Below are positions 7,879 through 58,329 of a DNA stretch of 64,000 bases, piece by piece (the first letter of the stretch is position 1; each line of letters opens with the position of its first letter). The notes beneath the pieces were generated by a model that made no database searches, was not told where the DNA came from, and was given only the letters and a program-made list of their open reading frames with translations. The position numbers and the translations under genes were made by a program. Origin of the DNA: Chroococcidiopsis thermalis PCC 7203 (lineage in GTDB: Bacteria > Cyanobacteriota > Cyanobacteriia > Cyanobacteriales > Chroococcidiopsidaceae); assembly GCF_000317125.1 (NCBI RefSeq), contig NC_019695.1:1228336-1292335 (forward strand), written 5' to 3'.

Positions 7879-7938
7879 CAATATAAGTTATGCGAAACTA
7901 GTGGGAATATACTACTTACCGCTATACCTTGTCAATAT

Positions 7939-16914: not shown

Positions 16915-17916
16915 TTATGTTTTTCTTTCGCTGTCGAGCATAGCCATCTGTCCGGCATCGTAGCGATCGCCCGCCACCGCAGTTGTTGGGACTGCCTTTT
17001 CGATTCGAGCGAGATCTGCCACAGACAGCTCTATTTCCAACGCACCCAGCGCCTCAGCAAGGCGATCGCGCCGACGTGCGCCAACCAGCGGAATAATATC
17101 GGCTCCCTGCGCTAAAACCCAGGAGATCGCGACTTGAGCCACTGTCGCCCCTTTCTCGTGGGCGATCGCCCGTAACGCCTCGACGAGGGCGAGGTTGCAA
17201 TCTAGATTTGCGCCCGTAAAGCGGGGCAGGTGGGCGCGAAAATCGCGGGCTGTTGCCGATCGCTCTTTCGACCAGTGACCGCTCAAAAGACCGCGCGACA
17301 GGACTCCATAGGCAGTAATTGCGATGCCGAGTTCGCGAGCTGTCGGCAGAATCTCAGTTTCAATGCCGCGACTGAGGAGCGAATATTCAATTTGCAGCCA
17401 GCTAATCGGGTGAACGGCTTGGGCGCGGCGCAGGGTTTCGGCTCCTGCTTCTGAAAGCCCGATATGGCGCACGTAGCCCGCTTTAAGCATTTCGGCGATC
17501 GCGCCGACTGTCTCTTCAATCGGTACTGTATGGTCTATCCGCGCTGGTTGGTAAAGATCGATGTAGTCAGTTCCCAGCCGTTTGAGCGTGTAGGCGAGGA
17601 AGTTTTTCACGGCGGCGGGACGGCAATCAACACCAATAAAACCACCGTTAGGCGATCGCATCGCCCCGAATTTGACAGCGATAAAGACATCTTCACGCCT
17701 GCGACCTTTCAGGGCTTCGCGCAAAAGCATCTCATTATGACCCGATCCGTAGAAGTCTCCTGTATCCAATAACGTAATTCCAGCTGCGATCGCATCGTGT
17801 ATGGTTGCGATACTTTCAGCTTGGTCAGCGGGACCGTAGAAGTCTGACATCCCCATCAGCCCTAGACCGAGAGCAGAGACATTGGAACCGTTGTTGCCGA
17901 GAGTGCGTGTCTGCAT
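16915..17916 (-). CDS. Aldo/keto reductase
   Basis: A 333-residue AKR with the barrel signature LLDTGDFYGSGHNE, containing catalytic Asp and Tyr, and a Lys in VFIAVKFGAM. At the position of the usual catalytic His the protein has YQPARID, a variant seen in some AKR13-type bacterial enzymes. C-terminal residues around GARRRDRLAEALGAL fit NADPH binding. It should reduce aldehydes or ketones in the cytoplasm with NADPH; the substrate is not evident. It follows the alpha/beta hydrolase gene by about 50 bp on the same strand. Confidence 0.85.
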   Translation of the reverse strand: MQTRTLGNNGSNVSALGLGLMGMSDFYGPADQAESIATIHDAIAAGITLLDTGDFYGSGHNEMLLREALKGRRREDVFIAVKFGAMRSPNGGFIGVDCRPAAVKNFLAYTLKRLGTDYIDLYQPARIDHTVPIEETVGAIAEMLKAGYVRHIGLSEAGAETLRRAQAVHPISWLQIEYSLLSRGIETEILPTARELGIAITAYGVLSRGLLSGHWSKERSATARDFRAHLPRFTGANLDCNLALVEALRAIAHEKGATVAQVAISWVLAQGADIIPLVGARRRDRLAEALGALEIELSVADLARIEKAVPTTAVAGDRYDAGQMAMLDSERKT

Positions 17917-17969: not shown

Positions 17970-18848
17970 TCAATCCATTGGATGCTTCTGGAGAAAAGCC
18001 AGGGCAGCTTGTCCGACTTCTACAGGATTCATACTTTGCATCCCGTGAGTTGCATTCATGATGCCGCACCGTTCGGCTTGCGGCAGCCAGTCCATCAGAA
18101 ACTGCTGCGTTTCCCGAAAACCAGGCATTGCCGCTTCGCTATCCAGTCCCATCGCCGCTAAGATTGGCATAGTTGGTTTTTTCTCGACTAGCCGATCTGC
18201 CTCTGACATTCTGAATCCCCAATTGGAAATTGCCGGGAAATCAATTGTGAAAGCGATATTGGCATCAACAGCAACTCTGTCCCATACATCAATTGGATTT
18301 GTCAGATCGACAGCACTCAAAAAACTGTGTCCGCAGACATCTACCATGTAGCGCTGAGCCGCACCCAGGCGATCGCCAGCTTTAAACAGATCCATCGCTC
18401 GGTTAAAGGCATTCACGTTTGCTTCAACTGCCTCTGGAGCTTCTCTCGGCAAGTATGGTTCGAGCAGGATGGCAGAATGTACCATCTCAGGATAGGAAAG
18501 CATGAATTGAAAGCCAATCACACCACCAAAGGAAAAAGCTAGAATATGTGTTTTTTCAATCCCTAAATGCTCCAGCAATTGTTTAGCGTGTTCTGCGCCT
18601 TCTTCAATACTCAAACTATCTTTTTCTAGCGTGCTGCCGTTATAGCCAGCTCTGTAGTAGCTAATAAACTGGTATTTTTCAAACAACTGGGGATAAAATT
18701 GCAGTGGCGTAATCAGGCTGTCAGCAATATTCGTGCCGTGAATGCAAAGTACGGGTTCGCCACTTCCCACCAGCGCATATCTGAGTTCGGCGTTTTTGAC
18801 TTTTGCCCGCTGGTTATGCTCGATTGACCAATCGCGACCGATATACAT
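17970..18848 (-). CDS. Alpha/beta hydrolase
   Basis: A 292-residue alpha/beta-fold hydrolase. It has an oxyanion-hole motif CIHGTNIADS (~34-43), a nucleophile elbow AFSFGG in which the usual first Gly is Ala, a candidate acid in MGLDSEA and the catalytic His in NATHGMQS near the C terminus. Predicted to be a soluble esterase or related hydrolase. The ATG at 18848 has an AGGAGA about 6 bases upstream. It starts the short group hydrolase, aldo/keto reductase, GH13 on the minus strand; a joint function is not evident. Confidence 0.8.
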   Translation of the reverse strand: MYIGRDWSIEHNQRAKVKNAELRYALVGSGEPVLCIHGTNIADSLITPLQFYPQLFEKYQFISYYRAGYNGSTLEKDSLSIEEGAEHAKQLLEHLGIEKTHILAFSFGGVIGFQFMLSYPEMVHSAILLEPYLPREAPEAVEANVNAFNRAMDLFKAGDRLGAAQRYMVDVCGHSFLSAVDLTNPIDVWDRVAVDANIAFTIDFPAISNWGFRMSEADRLVEKKPTMPILAAMGLDSEAAMPGFRETQQFLMDWLPQAERCGIMNATHGMQSMNPVEVGQAALAFLQKHPMD

Positions 18849-19296
18849 TTATTGTCTCCTACGAAGATACTAAATTGCTTGTAAAAGGAATGCAGATGGT
18901 AATTGGTAGTTGGTAGTTGGTAATTACGCAACGTGTAACTGTCTCTTGCTCTTGTTCCCCCCTTTCTCAAGGGGAGCCACTTGCGTGGGCGGGTTTCCCG
19001 ACTTGAGCAAAGTGGCGTGGGTTAGGGGGGATCTCTTCGTGAGTGGTGTAGTTTGTCGATCCCCAACCCCCTTAAAAAGGGGGCTAAGAAAAAAGTCGCA
19101 CGCGAGGTTAATTGGTAATGGGTAGTTGGTAGTTGGTAGTTGTCCCCCTGCTCCCTTGTCCCCCTTCGCCCCTAATCCCCACTCCCTTCGGTCGCGGGGA
19201 AGAGCGAGTTCCCCCTTGTCCCCCTTGTCCCCCTTGTCCCCCTTGTCCCCCTCAGCTCCCTCAGCTCCCTCAGCTCTCTTCTCCCTGCTCCCATTT
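18849..19296. repeat. 448-bp repeat-filled intergenic region
   Basis: No gene is seen. It contains GTTGGTA/ATTGGTA heptamers (18897-18925 and 19111-19141), two arms of a GC-rich element with CCCCC..GGGG ends (about 18956-19090), and a CCCTTGTCC nonamer tandem array at 19202-19258 followed by CAGCTCCCT repeats. Short open frames across these repeats are artefacts of low complexity. Confidence 0.75.
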
Positions 19297-20319
19297 CTAA
19301 GCTGTTAGCACTTGCCGCAGCACATCATCCATTGCCTGTCTGTCTTGCTCGGTTAGGGAGAATGTGGTCAAGTGTCCGCCGATGCTGTTAACTTCCCAGT
19401 ATTTAGCGTTGGGAATCCTTTCAGCGTCACGCTGGCATTCTTCCGGCGGAAACATGCGATCGCCAGTGAAAGCAACTACAAACATTTGTGCTTTAATGCG
19501 GCTGAGTGCGGCAGATAGATCGCCACCAGCACTGGGATCGGCGGCGCGGGTCTTGCGCGATTGATTCACCAAATTGTTAGGGTCTTGGGGCAGCATAAAG
19601 GCTTCCCAGAAACGAGAAACGAAGTCATCCATAGAAGCAAAGCCGATCGTCCGCCAGACTTCTTCGCCTTCACGGTAGAATCCGAGTGGAGGCAGTGTCA
19701 GCGCCATGACGTGTGCTTGACGGCGCAATCCAGCTTGTACGGCTTGAGGATCGGTGTAGAAGCCGTTGTTCCAAGCTGGATCGGCTAAGATCGGTTCCTC
19801 AATTGCCGTGCGCAACCACAAAAGAGTCCACGGAGAAGGCTTGGGAGCGCCTGCGATCGAAGCCGCACGCTTGACCATGTGGGGAAAGCGAACCGCCCAC
19901 TCATAAGTTTGCAGCGCACCGACAGACCAGCCGAGGACTAAATACAGTTCGTCGATGCCGAATTTTTCAGTGACGAGCCGATGTTGAGCGATAACATCAT
20001 CAGCAATATGAGTTTGCGGGAAGGCTCCGCGATCGAATGGTGGAGCTGTGTTGCTGGGCGAGGAAGAGACACCGTTGCCTAACAACCCAGGTAAGATGAT
20101 AAAGTATTTGCGCGGGTCGAGCGGACGATCTTCGCCAATATAGATTTCTAGAGCTTCTGGCGCTCCGCCCAAAAAATGTGGAAACAAAATCGCATTGTCT
20201 TTGGCTGCGTTCAATTTACCGTGGGTTTTATACGCTAGTTTGGCGTTAGAAAGGATGAATCCAGTTGATAGTTGGAAGTCACCTAAATCGAAAATTTCTG
20301 TTTGTGATTGTTCTGGCAT
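19297..20319 (-). CDS. MetX-like alpha/beta hydrolase (homoserine acetyltransferase family)
   Basis: A 340-residue protein of the MetX-type alpha/beta fold: LAYKTHGKLNAAKDN near the N terminus, nucleophile Ser in LGWSVGALQ, acid Asp in FTGDRMFPP and His in SIGGHLTTF. True homoserine O-acetyltransferases make O-acetylhomoserine, but many paralogues are hydrolases, and the operon context here is not methionine synthesis. It is the last gene of the ten-gene operon; its ATG is 2 bp after the GMC stop, with an AGAGG overlapping that stop, so translational coupling is likely. Confidence 0.8.
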   Translation of the reverse strand: MPEQSQTEIFDLGDFQLSTGFILSNAKLAYKTHGKLNAAKDNAILFPHFLGGAPEALEIYIGEDRPLDPRKYFIILPGLLGNGVSSSPSNTAPPFDRGAFPQTHIADDVIAQHRLVTEKFGIDELYLVLGWSVGALQTYEWAVRFPHMVKRAASIAGAPKPSPWTLLWLRTAIEEPILADPAWNNGFYTDPQAVQAGLRRQAHVMALTLPPLGFYREGEEVWRTIGFASMDDFVSRFWEAFMLPQDPNNLVNQSRKTRAADPSAGGDLSAALSRIKAQMFVVAFTGDRMFPPEECQRDAERIPNAKYWEVNSIGGHLTTFSLTEQDRQAMDDVLRQVLTA

Positions 20320-20321
20320 AT

Positions 20322-21899
20322 TTACCTCTGTTGTTTAATAAAATCTGCGACTCTTTCGCCGATCGCGACGATTGTTGTATGAGGGTTGGATGAGGGGATG
20401 GCAGGCATGACGGAAGCATCTGCGACGCGCAATCCTTCCACGCCGTAAACTTTGAGTTGCGTGTCTACAACTGCCATGCGATCGACACCCATTTTGCAAG
20501 ATCCTACGTAGTGGTAGTAGGAACCGACATTGTTAATTACCCAATCTCTAAGTGCTGCTTCAGTGTTGACTTCTGGACCTGGATTGATTTCTGTCAAACC
20601 TAACTTAGTAAAGGCTTGAGTTTGATAAATCTGACGGGCTATTTTTACCATCTCGACCATGCGATCGATGTCCGATGTTTCTGCGCCATAATTGGCGTTA
20701 ATTAACGGATTAGCCATCGGATCGCTACTTGCCAAACGCACCCAGCCACGGGATAGCGGACGCACTAAACCAGGTAGCGCCAAAATGATTCTCGGATCGA
20801 CTAACTGGCTGACTGGCGCAATTGGTTGATTTGTTTGCAGACGTTGGATGACGTTACCGAAAAATGATTCGCCAAATGGGGCGCGATGCACCAAACAAAT
20901 TTCTAAGTCGGGAACCAGCATCGACGGTTCAGATTTCCAAAATAAGGCAACTTCGGTCATATTACCTTTAGGATCGGCTCCTGGTTCAGTCATCATGCCC
21001 ATCGGACCGATAATCAGTGGATGGTCGTGAAAATTTTCTCCTACACCCGGTAAATCGACTACTGTAGGTATGTTGAATTGTTGCAGTTGTTCGGGATTAC
21101 CAATACCTGAAAGCAGCAATAATTTTGGCGATTGAATTGCCCCTGCACAAACAATCACTTCGCGCTCGGCTCTGACAGTCTTTAAAGCTCCGTCTTGCTG
21201 ATATTCAACCCCTACACAGCGATGATTTTCAATTAACAGTTTCGTTGCTTGGGAATTGCTGCTTAAAGTAACGTTAGGACGAGCTAAAGCTGGTTCTAAA
21301 TATGCCGTTCTAACTCCCGCTCTTCTGCCATTCTTAATATCAACGTGATGCCAACCAACCCCAAAATCCTCGGCATTAAAATCTTTGACGTAAGGATAGC
21401 CCAGTTCTACACAGGCATCGATGAAAGTTTGTGAAGCTGGATTGCCTTCGTATTTGGCATCAATGATATTAATTGGACCACCTTTACCCGCAGTAGGGTT
21501 GGTGTCGTCTTCCTGATTTTCGAGTTTTTGAAAATAAGGCAGCACGTCTTTGAAAGACCAGCCAGCACAACCATTGTAAGCCCAATCATCAAAATCGGCG
21601 GCTTTACCTCTGGTATGAATCATGTGATAAATATTGGAAGTTCCGCCGATCAGTTTGCCAGCCGCAGAATAGATTTGTCTGTTAGCTAATCCTGGTTGGG
21701 GAACGCTCATGTAAGCCCAATCGATTTCGGTCAATAACAATTCATTCCAGCGGTAGGGAACGTCAATAGCTTCCCAATTTTGAGTTCCGCCAGCTTCTAA
21801 AATTAAGACTTTGGCATCAGCAAGTTCACTCAAACGATAGGCAACGGTTGCACCTGCTGCGCCCGAACCGACAACAATATAATCAAAAGTTTCTGTCAC
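20322..21899 (-). CDS. GMC-family FAD oxidoreductase, copy 2
   Basis: A 525-residue glucose-methanol-choline oxidoreductase. It has the FAD motif DYIVVGSGAAGATVAYR at the N terminus, GMC signature 1 (GKLIGGTSNIYHMIHTRG), signature 2 (GAIQSPKLLLLSGIG) and the catalytic pair His in YHYVGSCKMG and His in SNPHTTIVAIG. It should oxidise an alcohol to an aldehyde. The frame is open to a TTG at 21956, but the GTG at 21899 directly before the FAD motif, preceded by a G-run, avoids overlap with the upstream GMC gene. It is adjacent to a paralogue and probably arose by tandem duplication. Confidence 0.85.
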   Translation of the reverse strand: MTETFDYIVVGSGAAGATVAYRLSELADAKVLILEAGGTQNWEAIDVPYRWNELLLTEIDWAYMSVPQPGLANRQIYSAAGKLIGGTSNIYHMIHTRGKAADFDDWAYNGCAGWSFKDVLPYFQKLENQEDDTNPTAGKGGPINIIDAKYEGNPASQTFIDACVELGYPYVKDFNAEDFGVGWHHVDIKNGRRAGVRTAYLEPALARPNVTLSSNSQATKLLIENHRCVGVEYQQDGALKTVRAEREVIVCAGAIQSPKLLLLSGIGNPEQLQQFNIPTVVDLPGVGENFHDHPLIIGPMGMMTEPGADPKGNMTEVALFWKSEPSMLVPDLEICLVHRAPFGESFFGNVIQRLQTNQPIAPVSQLVDPRIILALPGLVRPLSRGWVRLASSDPMANPLINANYGAETSDIDRMVEMVKIARQIYQTQAFTKLGLTEINPGPEVNTEAALRDWVINNVGSYYHYVGSCKMGVDRMAVVDTQLKVYGVEGLRVADASVMPAIPSSNPHTTIVAIGERVADFIKQQR

Positions 21900-21942
21900 G
21901 ATCGCCCCCCATTCATTAATTTTTGTTTTTAGTTTTGCTAAA

Positions 21943-23490
21943 CTACCGAGTGGCAATAATTAAATCGGCTGCTTTTTCACCAATAGCGATGGTAGGAGCA
22001 TTCGTATTCCCGCTCGTAATTGTGGGCATAATCGAAGCATCTGCAACCCGCAATCCTTCTACTCCATAGACTTGCAGTCGAGAATTAACAACGGCATCGC
22101 GATCGCTTCCCATTTTGCAAGTCCCAACTGGATGCCAGACAGTAGAAGCAACTTGTCGAATATAGGTGCTTAATTCTGCTTTGCTGGTGACAGAAATTCC
22201 TGGGGCTAATTCTTCACCGCGAAATTCATCAAAAGCACGAGTATTCACTAATTCTCTCGATAATTCAATTCCTCGAATTAACACATCGAGATCGGCTTCA
22301 GATTGCAAGTAATTAGGACGCAAAACAGCTAAATCTTGAGGATTGTTAGATCTTAAAGAAACAGTACCTCGACTTTGCGGCTGCACTAAAATTGGTGCGA
22401 AAGTAAAGCCAGGACCATCAACTCGATACTGAGGTTCTAAAAATTGTACGGGTCCAAAAAAGAATTGCAAATCGGGTGAGTTCGTACTGCGATCGATGTC
22501 GCTGCTGGTATAAGTAAATAAACCTGCTTCGGAAAGCAGATTAGGTACGGGTTGTTCTTGCTTGCAGCTATAGCCAACTCCAAATAGCAAATGATCTTGC
22601 AGATTTTTGCCAACTCCAGGTAAGTCAACTACAAGGGGAATACTATGAGCTTGCAAATGTTCGGCGGCTCCAATACCGGAAAGCATTAATAATTTCGGAG
22701 ATTCAAATGCACCACAACTAAGAATTACTTCCGCTTCGGCTTTAACTTGGTGAATTTTGCCGTCTTGCAGATATTCCAAGCCAATAACTCGCTGTTTAGC
22801 AAATAAAAGTCGGGTGACTTGCGCGTCAACTTCTACTGCAAAATTGGGATGTCCGAGAATTGGTCTGAGAAAAGCAACAGCCGTACTGCAACGCCGATCA
22901 TCTTGCGTGCGAGTCGATTGATAGAAAAATGCGCCATTTTCCTGTTGTGCGCCGTTGCAGTCCCAGTCATTACCCCCATAACCCAATTCCATCGCTGCTG
23001 ACACGAAAGCCTGGGATACAGGTGCGGGATTGCGATAGTTAATGACGTGTAAAGGTCCGCCTACACCTCGATATTCCGAGGCTCCACCTTCATAATCTTC
23101 CGATTTTTTGAAATAGGGTAAGATTTCTTGGTAACTCCAACCTTCGTTACCTAAATATTTCCAGCGATCGTAATCGCGACGATTGCCTCGAATGTACATC
23201 ATGGCATTGATTGAAGTTCCGCCGCCCAAAACTTTGCCTTGGGCGATCGAGATTTGGCGATCGCCTAAACCTGGTTCTGGTTCGGTTGAGTAACCCCAAT
23301 CTGCATTAGAACCCCACAGAGAAGTCATCGACTGCATATCTGTGTTGTGGATAGCGGGGTTGCTATCTGGACTGCCTGCTTCTAGTAACAGAACGCTACA
23401 ACCCAGATTTTTCATCAGTCGGTAGGCAATGACACAACCAGCCGCGCCAGCACCTACAATAATGTAATCAAATGTACGTTCAAAATTCAT
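21943..23490 (-). CDS. GMC-family FAD oxidoreductase, copy 1
   Basis: A 515-residue GMC oxidoreductase with DYIIVGAGAAGCVIAYRL at residues ~7-24, signature GGGTSINAMMYIRG, second signature GAFESPKLLMLSGIG and catalytic His in WHPVGTCKMG. At the second active-site position it has Asn (SGNTNAPTIAIG), like choline dehydrogenase, whereas the neighbour has His. The two copies may therefore act on different substrates or successive steps (inference). The ATG at 23490 follows the second Nif11 gene by 17 bp. Confidence 0.88.
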   Translation of the reverse strand: MNFERTFDYIIVGAGAAGCVIAYRLMKNLGCSVLLLEAGSPDSNPAIHNTDMQSMTSLWGSNADWGYSTEPEPGLGDRQISIAQGKVLGGGTSINAMMYIRGNRRDYDRWKYLGNEGWSYQEILPYFKKSEDYEGGASEYRGVGGPLHVINYRNPAPVSQAFVSAAMELGYGGNDWDCNGAQQENGAFFYQSTRTQDDRRCSTAVAFLRPILGHPNFAVEVDAQVTRLLFAKQRVIGLEYLQDGKIHQVKAEAEVILSCGAFESPKLLMLSGIGAAEHLQAHSIPLVVDLPGVGKNLQDHLLFGVGYSCKQEQPVPNLLSEAGLFTYTSSDIDRSTNSPDLQFFFGPVQFLEPQYRVDGPGFTFAPILVQPQSRGTVSLRSNNPQDLAVLRPNYLQSEADLDVLIRGIELSRELVNTRAFDEFRGEELAPGISVTSKAELSTYIRQVASTVWHPVGTCKMGSDRDAVVNSRLQVYGVEGLRVADASIMPTITSGNTNAPTIAIGEKAADLIIATR

Positions 23491-23507
23491 TGACTAGTCC
23501 ACCTTTT

Positions 23508-23822
23508 TTACCGGTTTAGAAACTCATCAATCTCTTTTTGGGATAAACTATCAATGACATTGGCAGCGAGATATTCCAGATAGTATTTGCCCCACATTGT
23601 TTCCCACAAACTAAATGTCAAATCGAAATTTTCCCCTAATTTATTCGCTAAATAAATCTCAAGTTCCCAAACAGTGTCGTCGAATTCTTGCTCGGTGAAC
23701 TTATAACCTGCTTGCGCTGCATATGTCAAAACTTCTAGTTTAGGAAGAGTTTTTAATTTGGTTTGCAATTCGGACTGGTGGACGAGTTTTTGTAAAAAAT
23801 TAACGACTTCTATTCTTGCCAT
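23508..23822 (-). CDS. Nif11-domain protein, copy B
   Basis: A 104-residue protein whose first ~55 residues match the Nif11 pattern (VVNFLQKLVHQSELQTKL, then AAQAGYKFTEQEF). The second half contains SLWETMWGKYYLEYL and ends in FLNR. Nif11 domains occur in nitrogen-fixation-linked proteins and as leader peptides of RiPP precursors. This protein lacks a double-Gly cleavage site and a Cys-rich core, and no modification enzymes are nearby, so a RiPP role is unlikely. It lies 23 bp after its paralogue and 17 bp before GMC copy 1, in the centre of the operon. Confidence 0.75.
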   Translation of the reverse strand: MARIEVVNFLQKLVHQSELQTKLKTLPKLEVLTYAAQAGYKFTEQEFDDTVWELEIYLANKLGENFDLTFSLWETMWGKYYLEYLAANVIDSLSQKEIDEFLNR

Positions 23823-23845
23823 AGGATTTTGACGAGTTTAAAAAC

Positions 23846-24160
23846 TTAGTTAAGAAACTGTTTTAGTTCTGCCTCAGAAAAAGCCTGAAATAATTCTTCA
23901 ACTACATAGTGCAGGCGAGACTTGCCCCACATTTTCCGCCATAAACTACTATTAGCGCCGATCGCTTCACCCATTCTCTCGATAATAATCTGAGCTTCCA
24001 TACCTCCAATAACCTCAGCTAATTCCTCACCATTAAAGCTGTAACCCAAACTTTTAGCGTGAAAAATAACTTCGGGTAAGTTTTTCTGCTCGAATTTTTC
24101 TAGCAATTTTGTATCGCTATGACAAACTCTAAAAAAATCAATTACACTTGCTTTCGACAT
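23846..24160 (-). CDS. Nif11-domain protein, copy A
   Basis: Also 104 residues when started at the ATG at 24160, which has GAGGAG nine bases upstream; an ATG two codons earlier (24166) has poor spacing. The N-terminal half is Nif11-like (VIDFFRVCHSDTKLLEKF, AKSLGYSFNGEEL). It has one IGG at residues 51-53, in the place of a RiPP leader cleavage site, but the rest, with SLWRKMWGKSRLHY, does not look like a modified core peptide. The SLW..MWGK..L.Y motif is shared with copy B. It follows the EthD gene by about 14 bp. Probably a small binding or regulatory protein of the pathway (inference). Confidence 0.75.
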   Translation of the reverse strand: MSKASVIDFFRVCHSDTKLLEKFEQKNLPEVIFHAKSLGYSFNGEELAEVIGGMEAQIIIERMGEAIGANSSLWRKMWGKSRLHYVVEELFQAFSEAELKQFLN

Positions 24161-24174
24161 AAACATAATCTCCT

Positions 24175-24873
24175 CTAACGAAAATCTGGACCAATAATCC
24201 AGTTTTCACTTGTCACCATACTATGAACGTAATTAGTTTCAAAAAGATGCCCAAATTCCGGTAGAATTAGATTTTCATATTCTGGCGAATTCAAAGCTTT
24301 CTCAAGAGAAGATAAATCATCAAACCAAAGTTGCGATACACAGTCGAGAATAGACTCACCGATCGCGTAAAAACTATCGCGAACGTGGCATTGAAGATAG
24401 CGTTGCAAACCTGGAATTTTCATAACTTTAGCAGCATGACCGTGCAACATAGTTTGGCGAAACTCTGCTAATGGCATTCCAGCTTTTCGCTTCACCATAA
24501 TCAAAAGCTTGATGCGCTTAGAATCTCTTTGTAGCGGTTCGCCTTCCATTAAAACGTGAGCTGTAGTATCTAGCCCAACCGTCCGCCAAAATGCTGCCCA
24601 GTTTGGTTCATCTCGTCGCGCTCCTTCGATAAACTCTTTAGACTGAAGCGAAGCAATTTGTTCTGCTTCATTTTCTAACCAAATTTCAGCAACACCACTA
24701 AAAAGCGGATCTACTGGCTCGGCTCCAAAAGGAATTCTGAGATCGATTAAATACCTTCTAATTTGAGGAATTTTGCTGGCATAATTTACCGCATGAATGT
24801 TAATCCAATAGTCTTGAAAATCTTTCTCACTCATCCCTGGTCTGGGATGGGCAAATATTAATTGGTGAATCAT
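24175..24873 (-). CDS. Tandem EthD-domain protein
   Basis: A 232-residue protein with two EthD-type ferredoxin-like (dimeric alpha/beta barrel) domains. Domain 1, about residues 1-115, has DFQDYWINIHAVNYASKIP; domain 2, about 118-225, has EFRQTMLHGHAAKVMKIPG. The conserved His and the following 'P..RYL' pattern are present in both. EthD-like proteins occur in degradation and natural-product pathways, often with no known catalytic role. Here it is between the ThDP enzyme and the Nif11 genes in the same operon. Confidence 0.8.
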   Translation of the reverse strand: MIHQLIFAHPRPGMSEKDFQDYWINIHAVNYASKIPQIRRYLIDLRIPFGAEPVDPLFSGVAEIWLENEAEQIASLQSKEFIEGARRDEPNWAAFWRTVGLDTTAHVLMEGEPLQRDSKRIKLLIMVKRKAGMPLAEFRQTMLHGHAAKVMKIPGLQRYLQCHVRDSFYAIGESILDCVSQLWFDDLSSLEKALNSPEYENLILPEFGHLFETNYVHSMVTSENWIIGPDFR

Positions 24874-24883
24874 GGTGAAGAAA

Positions 24884-24969
24884 GGGTGTGGGGTGTAGGG
24901 TGTGGGGTGTGATGGGGAGAATTCAGAATTAATTTTGAATTTTGAATTTTGAATTTTGAATTTTGAATT
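24884..24969. repeat. Two heptamer arrays between EthD and ThDP genes
   Basis: Four GGGTGTG-type units (24884-24911) and then at least five ATTTTGA units (about 24931-24969). Both have period 7. They lie inside the operon, in the gap between the ThDP enzyme stop and the EthD start. Confidence 0.8.
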
Positions 24970-24990
24970 GCTCCCCCAGCTCTCTTCTCC

Positions 24991-26682
24991 CTAGCCGATC
25001 GCTCCTGGGACTTCATTACTGATGACGAGATCGATCAGGAAAGGACCGTTGTGGAACAGAGCTTGAGCGATCGCGGGTTTGATCTGCTCTGGTGTTTCCA
25101 CGCGCACGGCTTGTACTCCCATCGCCCGTGCTAGCTCGTCAAACCGCAGATCGGGATGACATAAATCGAAAGATGCAGGAAATTCGGCTTGCGGAAGCTG
25201 CTGTTCTTGCCAATACTGCAAAATATTCAACTTTAGAATGCGATAGCTGCGATTGTTGCAGATGACAAATTTAGCGTCGATATTGTGGTGAGCAGCCGTC
25301 CACAATGCTTGGATCGTGTACATTGCGCCACCATCACCCGAAAAACCGATCGCCGTTTTATCGGGATGGGCGAGCTTAATCCCAATTGCACCAGGAATAC
25401 CCACACCGAGGGAACCACCCCGTGTCTGAAAATAATGTCCCAGCGTCGTTGGTGGAATGTAGCGACACAGCTCTTCAGAATGAGTAATAGCCTCATCGAA
25501 GACGATCGCGTTTGGTGGTAAATGTCTGGCGAGTTCCTCAGCAAACTGTGATAAATGCAGAGGTACTATGTCATGCACAGCTTTGTCAGCTTCAAACTGT
25601 TCCGTCATGTGCTGCTTTTTCGTTTCAGCAATTTGGGCAATTCTTTGACCGACTAGCCGCTTTTGCTCGGCAGTCATTATTTTTTCTAATTCAGCACCCA
25701 ATTTAGCAAGGGTCATTTTCGGATCGCTGACTATACCGAGATCTACAGGGAAATTTTTAGCAATTTCGTAAGCATTCAGATCGATATGAATGATTTTTGT
25801 ATTAGGTGCAAACGCACCGGATAATGCAGGAAAGACTTCGGGGAAAACATATGTACCGCAGATCAGCACGACATCAGCTTGAGATGTAATGCGACTGCTG
25901 ACTTCGCCAAACATATGACCTAGCAAGCCACCAAACAACGGATGGGTTGCACTCATATTTGGTTCCGATGAATCCGAACCCCAGACTTGAGCGCCAGTTA
26001 ATTCGGCGACGCGGGTTAATTCTACCTGAGCGTCGGAATAAGCTATACCATCGCCCACAATAATCAGTGGTTTGGATGCTGTAGCTAACATTGTTGCTGC
26101 TTTCGCGATCGCCTCCGGTTCGGGAGCAACTCGCGTAATGGGGATCGAGGTGGGAACGACTTCTTCCTCATTTGGCGCATCCAACACATCCATTGGCAGA
26201 GAGACAAAAACCGGACCCATCGGTGGCGTAGCGGCAATTTTGATCGCTCGACGCAATACCCGCAGCAGCGAACTCGGATGAACGACCCTAGTTGCCCATT
26301 TAGTGACGGGCTTTGCCATACTTACTAAGTCTGCTGCCATCTGCGCATCCATCGCATCGTATTGGATGCCAGATTCACCCGCCAGTACCACTAGCGGCGC
26401 ATGACCGCGCATTGCTTGATACAACATTCCGATCCCATTACCCAGACCAACGCCACTATGCAGTTGCACGACAGTAGGCTTTTTAGTAGAGCGAGCGTAG
26501 CCATCAGCAGCCGCTACCGCGATCGTTTCTTGTAAGGCAAGAATGTATTCAAATTCTGGATAATAATCGCTGAGTGCATCGAGAAACCCCTCTTCAGATG
26601 TACCGGGGTTGCCGAACATGTAGCGGATACCATCAGCAAGTAATTGCTCGATAATTGCAAATCTACCGTTTCTTTTTTCCAT
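24991..26682 (-). CDS. ThDP-dependent decarboxylase/acetolactate-synthase-like enzyme
   Basis: A 563-residue thiamine-diphosphate enzyme. The N-terminal pyrimidine-binding domain has FGNPGTSEEGF and the cofactor Glu in LQETIAVAAADGYAR; the C-terminal pyrophosphate domain has GDGGAMYTIQALWTAA followed by VICNN (the GDG..NN Mg-ThDP motif, about residues 443-470). It most resembles benzoylformate decarboxylase and other non-anabolic acetolactate-synthase-like enzymes, so it should cleave or join 2-oxo acids and aldehydes. Its neighbours (GMC oxidoreductases, PfpI proteins) fit aldehyde chemistry. Substrate unknown. Confidence 0.85.
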   Translation of the reverse strand: MEKRNGRFAIIEQLLADGIRYMFGNPGTSEEGFLDALSDYYPEFEYILALQETIAVAAADGYARSTKKPTVVQLHSGVGLGNGIGMLYQAMRGHAPLVVLAGESGIQYDAMDAQMAADLVSMAKPVTKWATRVVHPSSLLRVLRRAIKIAATPPMGPVFVSLPMDVLDAPNEEEVVPTSIPITRVAPEPEAIAKAATMLATASKPLIIVGDGIAYSDAQVELTRVAELTGAQVWGSDSSEPNMSATHPLFGGLLGHMFGEVSSRITSQADVVLICGTYVFPEVFPALSGAFAPNTKIIHIDLNAYEIAKNFPVDLGIVSDPKMTLAKLGAELEKIMTAEQKRLVGQRIAQIAETKKQHMTEQFEADKAVHDIVPLHLSQFAEELARHLPPNAIVFDEAITHSEELCRYIPPTTLGHYFQTRGGSLGVGIPGAIGIKLAHPDKTAIGFSGDGGAMYTIQALWTAAHHNIDAKFVICNNRSYRILKLNILQYWQEQQLPQAEFPASFDLCHPDLRFDELARAMGVQAVRVETPEQIKPAIAQALFHNGPFLIDLVISNEVPGAIG

Positions 26683-26689
26683 GATTTTT

Positions 26690-26775
26690 TCCTTTTAGAG
26701 AGGGAGCAGGGAGCAGTGACCAGTAACCTGTAATTTCTCCCTTGTCTCCCTTGTCTCCCTTGTCTCCCTTGTCCT
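26690..26775. repeat. TTGTCTCCC nonamer repeat
   Basis: About four copies of TTGTCTCCC at 26737-26772, between the PfpI and ThDP genes. The same 9-base period occurs at 19202-19258 and 45884-45921. Confidence 0.75.
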
Positions 26776-26781
26776 CTTCCA

Positions 26782-27636
26782 CTACCAGCCGTACCGTCTC
26801 AATCCCTTTTCCAAAACCTCTACCAACCGCTGACCAGTTGCATAGGAGTCTGGGGTGGAACGACCTGTGACGAAGGGGTAATCGACAATGACTGAAACTT
26901 CATGCCCGACGTTACCGTGGAATTGCCCTTCTGGTCCCGTAGCATCGCGCAGAATGTACTCTAGTGGATAGAACGGAGGACCGAAGTTAATATCACCTAA
27001 GTTAGGATTGACGTTCGCTCCCATAAATCCCGTACCGTCTTTGTAGTCATATTCCAAACAATGACCTGTAACGTGCTTGCCCCAGATAATGCTTTTGCGA
27101 TCGTTGATGTCGCGGGCAAAGGCAAGGCAGGGAACGCCATAACATTCGGCAGCAATGGGTTTATCCATTTGATAGAAGTTGAGGATCAAATCGTGGACTC
27201 TTTGGTTGTTGACCAAATCCACCAGAGGACCGCTACCACCAACGATTAACATCGAATCGTATTGACTTAAATCTTTGGCGCGGATTTCCTCAAGTCTGCG
27301 GTAGTAGGCTTCCATTTCCCGCAGAAATTTAGGAGAACTCCAATAAGGTCTTTCAGGTAGCCAATCTCTCAAGCTGATTGGATTATTTAAGCGGGGGTTA
27401 TTGGGGTCGTCTATAGCGCGGACTTTCTCTGCCATTTCTTGAGAAACGACAGGGCGACCTAAAGGCGGATCGACGAATGTAGCATCCATGCTAGGGGTGA
27501 GGGCTACAGGTCTTTTGCCTGTTGGCGTTGCAAAGTCCACTTGATACCCAGCAGCATCGAAGGTTTCTAGGGGACCGATCAATTCTTCGCCCCAGTAACC
27601 CCATTCCGATAGAATAATCAAAATCTTTCTAGTCAT
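26782..27636 (-). CDS. DJ-1/PfpI-family protein, copy 1
   Basis: A 284-residue DJ-1/PfpI (class I glutamine amidotransferase-like) protein starting MTRKILIILSEWGYWGEEL. The nucleophile elbow is AAECYGVPC, with Cys in the usual place, preceded by VGGSGPLVDL. Members act as glyoxalase III, chaperones, proteases or hydratases. The frame extends upstream to 27732, but that part is translated heptamer repeat (ITNYQLPITNYQLP), and the ATG at 27636 has AGAGG six bases upstream, so the shorter form is real. It forms a pair with the other PfpI gene. Confidence 0.82.
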   Translation of the reverse strand: MTRKILIILSEWGYWGEELIGPLETFDAAGYQVDFATPTGKRPVALTPSMDATFVDPPLGRPVVSQEMAEKVRAIDDPNNPRLNNPISLRDWLPERPYWSSPKFLREMEAYYRRLEEIRAKDLSQYDSMLIVGGSGPLVDLVNNQRVHDLILNFYQMDKPIAAECYGVPCLAFARDINDRKSIIWGKHVTGHCLEYDYKDGTGFMGANVNPNLGDINFGPPFYPLEYILRDATGPEGQFHGNVGHEVSVIVDYPFVTGRSTPDSYATGQRLVEVLEKGLRRYGW

Positions 27637-27648
27637 TGGAACCTCTTT

Positions 27649-27695
27649 TGGTAATTGGTAATTGGTAATTGGTAATTGGTAGTTGGTAATTGGTT
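27649..27695. repeat. ATTGGTA heptamer array
   Basis: Six or so copies of ATTGGTA/GTTGGTA between the two PfpI genes. On the minus strand it creates a false upstream extension of PfpI copy 1. Confidence 0.85.
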
Positions 27696-27763
27696 GTAGG
27701 GGCGAGTTTGTTCCTAGATTTCTGTACCACACAAGTTATTTGTTAGGTAAAACCGCCCGCACA

Positions 27764-28492
27764 TTAGTGCGTAGTTAATTCCGAATTCCGAATTCCGTAG
27801 CTTGCTTCCCCGCAGGGGTATTCCGAATTCTGCTTGATTTGAGTCGCGATCGCATCGATAAATGCGTGAACATCATGTCCTGCTCGTCCCGTTACCATGT
27901 CGCCGTCGATCGCAATATTTTTGGGGTCGTTTGGCTCGGAATTAGCAGGGGGTGGTACGTAAATTGCACCTGCATTCGTGATGTCTGCTAAGACAACTTC
28001 GTGACAAATCACTCGTCGTCCTTTCAGTAGCTCTGGCATTGGTGTAAGCAACCATAACCCGTGGCACAGCAGCCCTTTGATGATTTTGGGATTCGCCATT
28101 GCTTTAGCGAAGAATTGGACTGCTGGAGCGGTGCGAGTCTGTTCTGGACTGATTTGTTGTCCTTGTGGGGGTTGAAAGTAGCGCAGGCGGACGCTGGTGT
28201 AATTTGCAGCCATGATGACAGCTGCATATTCATTGAGATCTACGTTTTGAAAGTCTATGTTGACTTCTAATGTTGCAAGGGGCGCTTCCTGTCTATTGAT
28301 CCGATCTGCTACTTCTACGCTATCGACATCAGCGGCAAAGCGAACGCTGGGCTGTTCCCATAGCCGAGACATCAAATCTACGGTTGCACCTAGTTCGGCA
28401 AAGCGTGTTTGATATGCTTCAATCTCGTAGGGAATGTATTCAGTTTCAACCAGTACGGCGATTTTCTTGCCTTCAAGCATTCTCGCGGTCAT
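27764..28492 (-). CDS. DJ-1/PfpI-family protein, copy 2
   Basis: A 242-residue DJ-1/PfpI protein: GKKIAVLVETEYIPYEIEAY at the start, the nucleophile in IKGLLCHGLWLL (canonical CHG, unlike CYG in copy 1), and VTGRAGHDVHAFIDAI near the end. ATG at 28492 with AGGAG seven bases upstream. It begins 10 bp after the AGE-like gene stop. Its last ~20 residues (NSEYPCGEASYGIRNSEL) are encoded by a CGGAATT heptamer repeat and so are probably acquired and dispensable. Confidence 0.82.
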   Translation of the reverse strand: MTARMLEGKKIAVLVETEYIPYEIEAYQTRFAELGATVDLMSRLWEQPSVRFAADVDSVEVADRINRQEAPLATLEVNIDFQNVDLNEYAAVIMAANYTSVRLRYFQPPQGQQISPEQTRTAPAVQFFAKAMANPKIIKGLLCHGLWLLTPMPELLKGRRVICHEVVLADITNAGAIYVPPPANSEPNDPKNIAIDGDMVTGRAGHDVHAFIDAIATQIKQNSEYPCGEASYGIRNSELTTH

Positions 28493-28502
28493 GTGTTTGC
28501 TC

Positions 28503-30512
28503 CTACGCGCTTAAAGGCTTCAGTTGTACGACGATTTCTGCTTCCGAACCGAGTTGAAATTCTTTTTCGCTCAGATTAATTCGGAAGTTATCGGGATCGA
28601 TATCATCGCGATCGCTACCATCAATGCTGATGCGGCTAACCTGCAAGCTATGAGGTCTGACAAAATCAGGTAAGACATTGATCGAGCGCTGCCGACAATT
28701 TTTATTCGGTTTGAAGTAAAGGCAGAAAGGTTGTTTCGTGACGTAAGAACTCACGTATATATGAGCTAAATAATTTAGCTCGAAGGCATGGTAGCCGGAG
28801 ATCGCGTGTCCGCCTTTATTCCCATAACCACCTTGAATTATGGGCATTCCGCTTTCGGTGACTCGGAAAAAGATCCCTTTGCTGTCTTGATCGAGGAAGA
28901 ATAAATTCCAGAAAGCGGCTGTCTCTTGCGCGAGTTCTAAATACTTTTGCTTTTGCGTCTCATCTTCATTACTGCAACCATGCAGAATTAAGTAGGCTAG
29001 GAGAGCCTGTTCTTGTTGCCAAAAGTCTTTTGTGTTGCTCCAAGGGAATTCTAATGGAAATCCGTTGCTGGGATGGCGCTCTACAGTATCAAAAATTCCG
29101 CCTCGGAATAGATCGACACCAATCTCAGCCATTGTCGAACCTAATTTATCTGCAAGCTTCATCAACTTATCGGCAAACTGTTTTGTTGGCTCTGCCGCTT
29201 CTGGGTTTTCAGCTACGGATTTATCAGCTGTAAAGTAGTAGTAATTAGCAACGCGAGTCAGGTTCCAAGCAATCTTTAAGTTGTGTCCGATCACGGCACG
29301 ATTTTGCTGCCAGCGCCAAGATTGATCTGGTTGCCAGTTGCGGAAAAACCTCTCGTTCACAAATGGTATGCTCGAATCTGGATCGGGAAACTGCTCGATG
29401 ATAATCGTGCTGGTCGTGTGGAGAATCTTTTTGCAGATATTTAAAAACTTCTGAAGTTCTTCAAAGTTGCCACAAGTTCTTGGCAATGGCTCAAGAGCTA
29501 AGATCAGATTGACCAAATAAGCTGGAATATGGTCTCCAATGGAATTCCAATTTTTCCTCGCTTGATTGTCACCTAACGCCTCATTATCCCAACTTAGGGT
29601 TGCATAATCGAGGTGTGAGAAGTAATCTCCAAAAGCATTCTCGCCATACTTCGATTCAAAATCTAGATAGTAATCGTTAAAGGTACGAATTGTTCGTTGA
29701 ATATCATCTAGTACTTCCCAGTCGAGAGTAATTCGATAGTATTGGGCTAATCCAGCTAAGGCATATATTTGTTCGTAGAGCGGAATTGTGTTGAGATCGT
29801 CACTATTTTGCGATGTCATGTACAGTTGATAGCTGTAATCTGTCTTGCGCTTACCAGATGCCCAAAAACAATGTTTGCCATCGCTAGTTAAGCCGCGAAA
29901 AGTTTCTCTTTGATACTGAACTCCCGCACGCGCCGCTGATAAATAGCTTTCGCATCCAGTGAGTAAGTAAGCAGAAGAGAGACCGTAGATCAATCGCGAT
30001 AGCGTCGAACTTTCTTGCAGGTTATCATCGGTACGCAAACCGATAATGTTTAAGTTAGTCTGATACAGTTTGAAATCATCAATTTCATAAGTCATCTTAT
30101 TTGGAAATAAGAAACCTAACCAAGTATCAGCTAAACGAGCAATTTGAACCAACCACCAATGCGTTTGCTCGAATAGGAATTTGCCGTCAGGAGCATGTAA
30201 GATATTAATAATTCGCGCATCGAGGCGGCGATTGGGATCGTCTTCAAGATAAACTCCTTGGACGGCAACTAAGCGATCGCGTTGAATATATTTTTTGACT
30301 AACTGTGACGGACTCCAAGCAAAGCCTTCTGGAGTTGGATAGCGATCGCGGTTAATTCCATCTAAATTTTGTACAAACTGAAATTGGGTTTCTCTACCTA
30401 CATTAACGACGAGTTCGTCACCACTTCTACATTTAATATGAAAGGCAGCTTCTTGCTCTCTGATTTCAGTCACGTTACCCATTAGGGTCGTACTAATTGT
30501 AAACTGTCTCAT
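28503..30512 (-). CDS. AGE-type (alpha/alpha)6-barrel isomerase-like protein
   Basis: A 669-residue protein. Residues ~120-590 resemble the N-acylglucosamine 2-epimerase/mannose isomerase barrel: repeated Trp/His-rich helices such as RNWQPDQSWRWQQNRAVIGHN, LFRGGIFDTVERHP and NKGGHAISGYHAFELNYLAH. An extra ~110-residue N-terminal domain (MRQFTISTTLMGNVTEI) and a C-terminal beta region are added, making it longer than the usual ~400. AGE enzymes epimerise or isomerise free sugars. It is the first gene of the operon, with GAGG upstream of the ATG at 30512 and the AraC-type promoter about 240 bp upstream. Substrate unknown. Confidence 0.7.
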   Translation of the reverse strand: MRQFTISTTLMGNVTEIREQEAAFHIKCRSGDELVVNVGRETQFQFVQNLDGINRDRYPTPEGFAWSPSQLVKKYIQRDRLVAVQGVYLEDDPNRRLDARIINILHAPDGKFLFEQTHWWLVQIARLADTWLGFLFPNKMTYEIDDFKLYQTNLNIIGLRTDDNLQESSTLSRLIYGLSSAYLLTGCESYLSAARAGVQYQRETFRGLTSDGKHCFWASGKRKTDYSYQLYMTSQNSDDLNTIPLYEQIYALAGLAQYYRITLDWEVLDDIQRTIRTFNDYYLDFESKYGENAFGDYFSHLDYATLSWDNEALGDNQARKNWNSIGDHIPAYLVNLILALEPLPRTCGNFEELQKFLNICKKILHTTSTIIIEQFPDPDSSIPFVNERFFRNWQPDQSWRWQQNRAVIGHNLKIAWNLTRVANYYYFTADKSVAENPEAAEPTKQFADKLMKLADKLGSTMAEIGVDLFRGGIFDTVERHPSNGFPLEFPWSNTKDFWQQEQALLAYLILHGCSNEDETQKQKYLELAQETAAFWNLFFLDQDSKGIFFRVTESGMPIIQGGYGNKGGHAISGYHAFELNYLAHIYVSSYVTKQPFCLYFKPNKNCRQRSINVLPDFVRPHSLQVSRISIDGSDRDDIDPDNFRINLSEKEFQLGSEAEIVVQLKPLSA

Positions 30513-30877: not shown

Positions 30878-31070
30878 GCTAAAATTATGCAATTGAAAGA
30901 TTAATTTACATTCAAATCTTTGAGTGCAAATAATCAGTAGGGTGGGCATTGCCCACTCTACTTGTGACTTCAATTAGCTAAAATTATGTAAGTGAAAGAT
31001 TAATTTACATTCAAATCTTTGAGTGCAAATAATCAGTAGGGTGAGCGTTGCCCACCCTACTTTTGACTGT
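30878..31070. repeat. 99-bp direct tandem duplication with hairpins
   Basis: Starting at GCTAAAATTATG, the unit at 30878-30976 is repeated from 30977 with a few changes. Each copy carries a GGGTGGGC/GCCCAC-type hairpin (30940-30958 and 31039-31057). In both, one arm has a single mismatch. It lies downstream of the AraC gene on its strand and may act as a double terminator. Confidence 0.85.
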
Positions 31071-31095: not shown

Positions 31096-32004
31096 CTAGC
31101 CGCGATACATAACTCGCCATGCCTGGGGGGTTGTGCCGTTCAGTCGTCGAAATAGGCGACTGAAATAACCCGCATCACAATAGCCAACTGCTTCAGCAAT
31201 TTGAATGACAGCCAGATCGGTTTCTAAAAGCAAGCGACGAGCTTCTGTCATCCGACGTTCGACAATCCAACTTAGTACAGTTTTACCAGTCTCTCGACGA
31301 ATCATATCAGTGAGATAAGCAGGAGAAAGGTTAACCTCTTTAGCCACTTCTTGCAGTCCGATGGAGTTGCGATAATTAGCATCAATGAAGCACAAAACTT
31401 GTTTTACTATGGGGCGAGCTTGCGGCGAAGATTTTTTTGATTCAGGTAGTTCAGATGCAGCGAGTCTAGCAGTTTCTATCAGTAATAGAATTAACAGAGC
31501 GCGGGTTGCTTCAGTAGAACCAAATCCCCGATCGCAGAGTTCGCTTTTGAGCTGTTCCAACAGAATTAACCAACGCGATCGAATCTCAGTTGGAACGTAA
31601 TAGTGTTTGGTTCGGGCATTTTCAGTTTGAACAAATGAGTTTAGCAGGCGATCGGGTAACATTAAGAGCATATCGGCTTCAGCACGGGTAGGGTTAAGAG
31701 CTTCGGCACTAAAACCAACAACCCACTTAGTTGCATCATCGAGTCCACTCGGATCGTGAACCTCACCAGGAGCGAGTAAAAATAGATCTCCAGGTTTAGC
31801 CCAAATAGGGCGATCGCCTATTGAATACCAACCTTCACCCTCTTCAACAAAAAAAAGTTCAAAAAATGTATGAGAGTGAGGGCGTGATAATTGTGAATTT
31901 GAAGAGCCTGTAGAGTGAAATACTATTATGCTTTGTTGCTCGGGGGTTTGTTCAGGTAAAGTCAGAGTCCGCAGTGGAATTGCAACGCGATTAGCTAACT
32001 GCAT
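31096..32004 (-). CDS. AraC-family regulator with cupin sensor
   Basis: A 302-residue regulator. Residues ~38-95 form a cupin-like ligand domain (SHTFFELFFVEEGEGWYSIG, KPGDLFLLAPGEVHDP). Residues ~205-300 form the double helix-turn-helix with LQEVAKEVNLSPAYLTDMI and the conserved IAEAVGYCDAGYFSRLFRR. AraC regulators of this type sense small molecules, often sugars, and activate adjacent operons. It points at the ten-gene operon on the same strand, and the predicted operator lies between them. Ligand unknown; a sugar is plausible given the AGE-like first gene. Confidence 0.9.
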   Translation of the reverse strand: MQLANRVAIPLRTLTLPEQTPEQQSIIVFHSTGSSNSQLSRPHSHTFFELFFVEEGEGWYSIGDRPIWAKPGDLFLLAPGEVHDPSGLDDATKWVVGFSAEALNPTRAEADMLLMLPDRLLNSFVQTENARTKHYYVPTEIRSRWLILLEQLKSELCDRGFGSTEATRALLILLLIETARLAASELPESKKSSPQARPIVKQVLCFIDANYRNSIGLQEVAKEVNLSPAYLTDMIRRETGKTVLSWIVERRMTEARRLLLETDLAVIQIAEAVGYCDAGYFSRLFRRLNGTTPQAWRVMYRG

Positions 32005-49078: not shown

Positions 49079-49090
49079 AACAAATTGCCG

Positions 49091-50110: not shown

Positions 50111-50169
50111 AAAAATTTTTAACCTTATTATCAATAAAAATATAGCAAATCAAAAAACAGATATTTAAA

Positions 50170-50228
50170 CTTTTGACTTTTGACTTTTGACTTTTGACTT
50201 TTGACTTTTGACTTTTGACTTTTGACCT
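50170..50228. repeat. Heptamer array TTTTGAC x8
   Basis: About eight consecutive TTTTGAC units (period 7), complementary to AGTCAAA, in the gap between hpsB and hpsC of module 2. Confidence 0.9.
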
Positions 50229-50233
50229 TTGGC

Positions 50234-51022: not shown

Positions 51023-51112
51023 CTCCCTTATCTCCCTTGTCCCCCTTCGCCCCCTAATCCCCACTCCCTTCGGTCGTGGGGTCCCCGAGTTCCCCCTTGT
51101 CCCCCTTGTCCC

Positions 51113-57219: not shown

Positions 57220-57258
57220 TCTTATTGTTTAATACTATTATTTAATAGAGTTTAAAAG

Positions 57259-58242: not shown

Positions 58243-58329
58243 TGATTGTTCTGCAACACTAGTTAAGCAAAATACAGTACTAGTTTAAGTAATAATACTC
58301 AAAAAAACAAATTGGCAAAATACTATTAA

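Follow-up and report, generated by a model that had tools for sequence, protein, structure and literature searches.

What does the long run of minus-strand genes in a 64-kb stretch of the Chroococcidiopsis thermalis PCC 7203 genome encode, and was it inherited as one unit? A sequence-only reading of this stretch (hereafter the window, whose positions give all coordinates below) had described an operon of ten closely spaced genes that would serve one aldehyde or sugar-derived pathway. All ten open reading frames (ORFs) were present at 19297-30512 on the minus strand and belonged to the families named. However, the unit is longer, running on the same strand from 30512 down to 14442 and adding an alpha/beta hydrolase, an aldo-keto reductase (AKR), and a GH13 enzyme. 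It is built in two layers, a backbone of AGE-like, PfpI, ThiJ-like PfpI, thiamine diphosphate (ThDP), and GH13 enzymes and a cassette of EthD, two Nif11, two GMC, MetX-like, and hydrolase proteins. The two layers have been inherited separately, and the AGE/PfpI/GH13 part is common to icfG-type clusters, so that the locus is neither a single ten-gene operon nor an isolated set. The features of the unit and of the region upstream of it are as follows.

31096..32004, minus strand: AraC-type regulator upstream of the AGE gene, a possible regulator only
30878..31068, minus strand: two 92-nt direct copies, 93% alike and each with a palindrome, between the AraC and AGE genes
28503..30512, minus strand: AGE-superfamily protein of 669 aa, backbone; N-terminal domain and (alpha/alpha)6 barrel
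27764..28492, minus strand: DJ-1/PfpI protein 1 (PfpI-1), backbone; DJ-1_PfpI match, Cys-His nucleophile motif
26782..27636, minus strand: ThiJ-like/PfpI protein 2 (PfpI-2), backbone; ThiJ_like/DJ-1_PfpI match, Cys-Tyr motif, start corrected from 27732
24991..26682, minus strand: benzoylformate-decarboxylase-like ThDP enzyme, backbone; TPP_enzyme N, M, and C matches
24175..24873, minus strand: double EthD-domain protein, first cassette gene; two EthD stretches
23846..24166, minus strand: Nif11-domain protein a (Nif11a), cassette; Nif11 match, compact helical predicted fold
23508..23822, minus strand: Nif11-domain protein b (Nif11b), cassette, paralogue of a; Nif11 match
21943..23490, minus strand: GMC oxidoreductase 1 (GMC1), cassette; GMC match
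20322..21899, minus strand: GMC oxidoreductase 2 (GMC2), cassette; GMC match, start corrected from TTG 21956
19297..20319, minus strand: MetX-like alpha/beta hydrolase, putative acyltransferase or esterase, cassette; PRK07581 above cut-off
17970..18848, minus strand: alpha/beta hydrolase, last cassette gene
16915..17916, minus strand: AKR, not core
14442..16892, minus strand: GH13 alpha-glucan enzyme of a TreZ/GlgB-like subfamily, backbone; alternative ATG 16958

The start of PfpI-2 is most likely 27636, leaving 127 nt between the two PfpI genes, and that of GMC2 is most likely the GTG at 21899, a start that fits the 525-aa Nostoc homologue. The small gaps and couplings described earlier were retained in part: the AGE/PfpI-1, EthD/Nif11a, and GMC2/MetX spacings of 10, 8, and 2 nt remain, but the claimed overlap of GMC1 and GMC2 becomes a 43-nt gap. 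A repeat-filled gap of 448 nt separates the MetX-like gene from the next alpha/beta hydrolase. The AKR, whose best NCBIfam match was methylglyoxal reductase, under the cut-off, was counted outside the core because the syntenic locus on a Nostoc plasmid gives only a 43-aa match to it. Short tandem repeats were also observed in several intergenic gaps of the unit (19138-19297, 26736-26771, and 24883-24962).

This syntenic locus, on the conjugative plasmid pNsp_a of Nostoc sp. ATCC 53789 (L074), carries genes for AGE, PfpI, PfpI, ThDP, EthD, Nif11, Nif11, GMC, GMC, hydrolase, hydrolase, NTF2-like, and GH13 proteins, twelve of them in the order of the window unit. Besides the short AKR match, it differs from the window in the NTF2-like gene and in a ThDP enzyme of another clade, and its record offers family names only. 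The recurrence of the gene set was assessed more broadly by an EthD pattern scan of GTDB contigs, in which 69 of 92 pattern matches were confirmed, giving at least 69 loci in cyanobacteria, actinobacteria, proteobacteria, Acidobacteria, Clostridia, Omnitrophota, Nitrospirae, and others. Before counting the tblastn matches, identity floors were set at 45% for ThDP, GMC1, GMC2, MetX-like, hydrolase, and GFO, at 50% for PfpI-2, and at 40% for AraC and AKR. Backbone families were then found in 56 (PfpI-2), 54 (ThDP), 51 (PfpI-1), 48 (GH13, four of them weak), and 45 (AGE) of the 69 loci, and cassette families in 12 (Nif11a), 13 (Nif11b), 12 (GMC1), 12 (GMC2), 6 (MetX-like), and 8 (second hydrolase). 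At least three of the five backbone families occurred together in 55 loci and all five in 38, with L070 counted on a likely cross-match to GlgE; the GH13 matches of approximately 25-26% in L035, L041, L053, and L070 are probably all such cross-hits.

Since EthD had been used to choose these loci, co-occurrence was also tested without the EthD anchor. Among 244 cyanobacterial genomes, any PfpI-2 match (E 0.001) was found in 91 and a close one (at least 61% identity) in 7; the ThDP clade (E 1e-100) occurred in 6, all among these 7, and the AGE clade in 19, covering 6 of the 7. Relatives are carried on plasmids as well, with eight examined in Streptomyces, Deinococcus, Gemmobacter, Runella, and Nostoc; these were drawn from 125 records with a PfpI-2 match, of which 14 reached at least 54% among the matches listed. 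Glycogen-related genes (GlgX, GlgE, maltokinase-like, GlgB, and MalQ) were found beside the relatives. The gene set was not described in the open-licence literature searched, as far as its accessible text goes, including that of PMC7105596 and PMC2887384.

Comparison with the Nostoc plasmid separated the histories of the two layers. The cassette genes (EthD, Nif11a, Nif11b, GMC1, GMC2, MetX-like, and hydrolase) were 79-88% identical at the nucleotide level and differed at 297 of 830 four-fold sites (36%; 12 of 24 for Nif11b alone), whereas the backbone genes (AGE, PfpI-1, PfpI-2, ThDP, and GH13) were 64-73% identical and differed at 492 of 779 four-fold sites (63%). In gene trees built on chosen loci (26, 26, 22, and 10 rows), the window grouped with the Nostoc plasmid for PfpI-2 (support 98/95), EthD (98/95), and, more weakly, GMC1 (92/92). 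The ThDP tree conflicted with this grouping, as the window enzyme was sister to the ThDP enzyme of a second cluster of its own genome (cluster B; 96/90) and the Nostoc plasmid enzyme fell in a different clade with Calothrix, Mastigocoleus, and Paraprochloron (97/94). Moreover, in Calothrix (L005) and Mastigocoleus (L006) the EthD-Nif11-Nif11-GMC-GMC block, with 72-79% identity to the window for EthD and the GMCs and 49-57% for the Nif11s, sits inside another backbone type, whose AGE is approximately 36% identical to that of the window. The four-fold divergence, the tree conflict, and the L005/L006 block together demonstrate that the cassette has its own history, inherited separately from the backbone.

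Three such clusters were found in the genome of C. thermalis PCC 7203, namely the window unit and clusters B and C. Cluster B has MalQ-like, PfpI, PfpI, ThDP, and small SnoaL/NTF2/VOC-like genes near 2.43 Mb, and its GlgX gene and AGE-STAS fusion lie near 2.44 Mb. Cluster C, near 5.10 Mb, holds PfpI-2, ThDP, SnoaL, EthD, VOC, a GMC of another type, SnoaL-ankyrin, PfpI-1, a GlgX-like GH13, and AGE. In a further cyanobacterium (L125), PfpI-2 and ThDP are followed by three SnoaL-like genes, one of them just under the Pfam cut-off, and a molybdenum aldehyde-oxidase-like set. Alternative cassettes on the backbone elsewhere comprise SnoaL, VOC, MIase, other GMC, and Mo-oxidase genes; oxidoreductases and small folds thus make up most of the variable genes. 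In Gloeocapsopsis, Cyanosarcina, and cluster C, AGE is followed by a gene whose product has a neurotransmitter-gated ion-channel ligand-binding domain (PF02931 in L010; L010:19760-20692; G000:C1:5115981-5116925 in cluster C).

The AGE, PfpI, and GH13 genes connect the unit with a known locus. In all four AGE contexts from other genomes that were retrieved for this comparison (L128-L131, four of the 18 other genomes with AGE), the order is PfpI-AGE-STAS-GlgX-STAS together with SpoIIE and HATPase genes. The L128 order, PfpI-AGE-STAS-GlgX-STAS-SpoIIE-HATPase, resembles the icfG locus of Synechocystis PCC 6803, a likeness by family and order, not by sequence. According to the accessible parts of PMC8670252 and PMC12329169, slr1852-slr1862 in PCC 6803 encodes the epimerase Slr1855, the anti-sigma antagonists Slr1856 and Slr1859, the GlgX1/isoamylase Slr1857, the IcfG phosphatase Slr1860, and the kinase Slr1861. 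Work going back to the 1990s links the icfG operon with carbon and glucose metabolism (Beuf 1994 and Shi 1999, cited by PMC12329169). The window shares with this locus an AGE-type protein and a GH13 enzyme, but it has no STAS, SpoIIE, or kinase match and its GH13 is of a kind other than GlgX. The window additionally carries ThDP, the second PfpI, and the EthD/Nif11/GMC/MetX cassette. Presumably, the Synechocystis locus also includes a PfpI gene. Furthermore, 11 genes separate AGE from GH13 in the window unit, against a single STAS gene in L128-L131. The GlgX equivalog cut-off was passed by L010, L005, and L127-L131 (7/7, including 4/4 for L128-L131), and the AGE proteins of L005 and L127 carry a C-terminal STAS domain. 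Plasmid clusters of Deinococcus and Streptomyces NBC_01267 bring together ThDP, PfpI, AGE, STAS, GlgX, STAS, and SpoIIE, with an anti-sigma factor added in Streptomyces. By family membership and gene order, the AGE/GH13/PfpI part of the window is akin to icfG-type clusters. In L128, a short-chain dehydrogenase and a DUF4432 protein (L128:5168-7021) were observed upstream of PfpI-AGE-STAS-GlgX, and the SpoIIE protein carries two GAF domains.

The AGE-like protein itself had no Pfam or NCBIfam match, and the Pfam GlcNAc_2-epim model was passed by its relatives in L005, L127, and L128 but not by the window protein; the AGE of cluster C (L090) likewise had no Pfam match, though it could be aligned with AGE-STAS proteins. 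The AlphaFold model of the window protein (mean predicted local distance difference test score, pLDDT, 87.7) was compared with the PDB by Foldseek and best matched the glucose 2-epimerase 8h1n (E 2.8e-15), with cellobiose 2-epimerases also matched. In the alignment of the AGE clade, Arg173 and His410 were kept in 27/27 sequences, and His575 in 26/27 with the remaining row truncated, and His328 was also retained; His410 was mapped to the superfamily by alignment with known structures, and Arg173 and the other His residues by motif reading. The window protein thus shares the fold and the Arg and three His positions with the AGE superfamily (N-acylglucosamine 2-epimerase, cellobiose/glucose 2-epimerase, and YihS), but it has an extra N-terminal region, and its H-x-x-E motif has Lys413 instead of Glu. 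This Lys was present in 27/27 clade sequences, the equivalent position being Glu in 8h1k and 8bry. In YihS, Glu251, three residues after His248, lies 4.4 A from the sugar C2 (PMC6333288, in the part of the article consulted). The alignment reveals an AGE clade with a changed active site.

The Cys of the PfpI-1 Cys-His motif was kept in 27/27 homologues and the Cys-Tyr motif of PfpI-2 in 37/37. The ThDP enzyme belongs to the fold family of benzoylformate decarboxylase and acetolactate synthase, with the same ThDP-site Glu and the equivalent of His70, both kept in 45/45 homologues, but it scored under the equivalog cut-offs and has Thr at the position of benzoylformate decarboxylase Ser26 (44/45) and Val at that of His281 (45/45), in what we take to be the benzoylformate decarboxylase numbering. 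The window GH13 scored 93.4 against a GlgX cut-off of 640.9 and is nearer to GlgB/TreZ than to GlgX, which takes the GH13 slot in the other backbone type. Past the nucleophile, the alignment does not match up the two GH13 subfamilies correctly, and residues there were not used.

From the observed gene set, its conservation, and its modular architecture, we infer each step of a possible pathway in which glycogen feeds a carbonyl (alpha-oxo) intermediate that is oxidised or acylated by an interchangeable cassette, a reading that we favour tentatively, at somewhat less than an even chance. The GH13 enzyme (GlgX in the sister clusters) would free a sugar or maltodextrin from glycogen, and the AGE-superfamily enzyme would isomerise or epimerise its reducing end, probably by altered chemistry because of the invariant Lys at the active-site Glu of the superfamily. 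A sugar-derived alpha-oxo-aldehyde or 2-oxo acid might then be handled by the ThDP enzyme together with both DJ-1/PfpI proteins, which bear the conserved Cys, and the exchangeable cassette would tailor the product. In the window, alcohol oxidation may fall to the two GMC flavoproteins, each probably paired with a helical protein of the Nif11 type; EthD may serve as a small isomerase or cyclase, and acyl transfer or removal may be the task of the MetX-like protein and the second hydrolase. None of the genes between 14442 and 30512 was identified as encoding a transporter, and intracellular use of the product is therefore probable. The proposal of one aldehyde or sugar pathway is upheld insofar as the genes point to a multi-enzyme pathway that has gone unrecognised and works on compounds resembling sugars or aldehydes, but not as one evolutionary unit.

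Several observations weigh against this reading. Fewer than three backbone families were found in 14 of the 69 EthD-anchored loci, nine of which had none, and some lie on short contigs. The Clostridia loci L063-L065 and L067 gave no AGE, GH13, or GMC match, and therefore glycogen is not always visibly the source. In the cyanobacterial survey, the AGE clade was present without a close PfpI-2 in 13 of its 19 genomes, and the ThDP gene also has its own history, so that the backbone cannot be regarded as a single block. NCBIfam cut-offs were passed by just two window proteins, EthD (TIGR02118) and the MetX-like protein (PRK07581); both models describe broad subfamilies and define no reaction here. 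Finally, one SpoIIE, one HATPase, and two STAS queries had no match at E 1e-3 in the whole window; the unit has lost the partner switch or never had it. The Clostridia clusters (PfpI, EthD, MIase, and ThDP in L063, L064, L065, and L067) were also observed to carry a 502-aa protein of family F38, whose L063 copy had no Pfam or NCBIfam match.

The role assigned to the Nif11 proteins competes with a very improbable alternative, in which they are precursors of a ribosomally synthesized and post-translationally modified peptide (RiPP) and the GMC and other enzymes modify their C-terminal parts. The Nostoc plasmid record names Nif11-like leader peptide precursors, and the two proteins gave weak TIGR03798 matches, but at 23.1 and 27.5 these fell under the cut-off of 32.3. 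A Gly-Gly at one place in 5/11 a-type sequences, window Nif11a included, keeps a small doubt, and it is absent from that place in 9/9 b-type sequences. The stretch past it is conserved rather than hypervariable: the two paralogues share a Trp-x-x-Met-Trp motif near the C-terminus (Trp76, Met79, and Trp80), invariant in 20/20 sequences. Nif11a is confidently predicted to be compact over its whole 106 aa (mean pLDDT 92.8), and its fold search of the PDB gave nothing at E 0.001. Thus, the window proteins share the Nif11 domain with the N11P RiPP precursors, as these are described in the accessible part of PMC2887384, but have a conserved and folded C-terminal part in place of a hypervariable core. 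Nor was any known RiPP-modifying enzyme found among the scanned genes of the unit, and we ranked this alternative low because of the cut-offs, the fold, and the conservation. The co-occurrence of tandem Nif11 with GMC and EthD genes, for which a search had been proposed, was confirmed: Nif11 is present in all 12 EthD-anchored loci that hold GMC1/GMC2. In L008, the thirteenth locus with Nif11, the GMC is of another type, and GMC1-like genes without a Nif11 match outside the EthD-anchored set (L078, 48%; L123, 52%) argue against a strict pairing. GMC1 and GMC2 scored 442.5 and 407.8 against choline dehydrogenase BetA (equivalog cut-off 732.1), and the MetX-like protein scored 143.2 against homoserine O-acetyltransferase MetX (cut-off 500), all under the cut-offs.

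The same enzymes might instead serve defence against reactive carbonyls, with DJ-1/PfpI, VOC, AKR, and GMC proteins removing glyoxal-type aldehydes of glycogen breakdown or stress and no dedicated product, which we consider rather unlikely. The two DJ-1/PfpI proteins with a conserved Cys, the under-cut-off methylglyoxal reductase match of the AKR, the VOC matches in 9/69 loci, and the partner-switch genes in approximately 20/69 are consistent with it; however, it leaves unexplained the joint retention of ThDP, AGE, MetX-like, EthD, and Nif11, the swappable cassettes, and the three clusters in one genome, and the AKR is reduced to the short match at the syntenic Nostoc locus. Still less probable is a mainly structural role, in which the small folds (EthD, SnoaL, VOC, MIase, Nif11, and SnoaL-ankyrin) would build or target a glycogen-associated enzyme complex under STAS partner switching. 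The many small interchangeable folds (with seven genes of the ester-cyclase or NTF2-like kind in a single Runella cluster), the SnoaL-ankyrin protein, and the AGE-STAS fusions agree with such a role, but the GMC, MetX-like, and hydrolase cassette genes are enzymatic by family, and EthD, VOC, and SnoaL folds are usually enzymes. That unrelated genes merely happen to lie on one strand is scarcely credible: the 448-nt gap and the mosaic history would fit it, but the same sets recur across phyla and on plasmids and co-occur across genomes. Anti-phage defence was rejected after a PADLOC run on 10 of the 13 unit proteins, of which nine had no match and the GH13 matched a GlgB model.

Putative control of the unit by the AraC-type protein could be proposed only from its position and from the 92-nt direct duplication in the AraC-AGE intergenic region. 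At 40% identity or more, the sole AraC match in the loci searched was one of 50% over 114 aa near PfpI-2 in L124, and the Nostoc plasmid locus had none. The palindrome read earlier as a putative operator is a weak candidate for a dedicated one because a near-identical palindrome is dispersed in the genome: it occurs exactly at 8 other places (15 strand matches), and the AraC-AGE palindrome differs from it by at least one base, so that the two window copies do not fit the exact dispersed pattern. Scans for promoters (23 against a mean of 27.7, standard deviation 5.4) and terminators (25 against 19.0, standard deviation 5.5) gave no clear excess over shuffles.

Elsewhere in the window, a pseudopilin-type cluster seems to have been duplicated at 48443-63434: two minus-strand gene sets follow one another there, and each encodes one very large protein besides short proteins with a pilin-like GFTL at the N-terminus. 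A 412-aa ORF and a divergent 135-aa ORF lie side by side at 6643-8346, which we take to be TnpB-like and IS200-type transposase-like, respectively, and a 1204-aa ORF at 10048-13662 reads as a putative NTPase with many WD40 repeats.

Returning to the glycogen-fed pathway, a wider reading is possible, if doubtful: icfG-type loci may mark one extreme of a wide family of plug-in pathways that has yet to be described, in which a regulated glycogen-to-carbonyl backbone, whose AGE-fold enzyme would use its Lys for new chemistry, provides a shared intermediate to lineage-swapped redox cassettes (GMC with its Nif11 partner, EthD, and MetX; or SnoaL/VOC/GMC3; or a Mo-oxidase). Such pathways would yield different intracellular compounds and would have moved between cyanobacteria, actinobacteria, and proteobacteria partly on plasmids. 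The literature on icfG covered here does not, in its accessible text, state a joint role for the epimerase and GlgX of that locus. In the enlarged clusters, the icfG enzymes are joined by a conserved ThDP/PfpI pair and exchangeable oxidation cassettes, a concrete enzyme set for tracing the metabolite. The clusters also point to a partnership with GMC flavoenzymes for two proteins that carry the annotation of Nif11 RiPP precursors.

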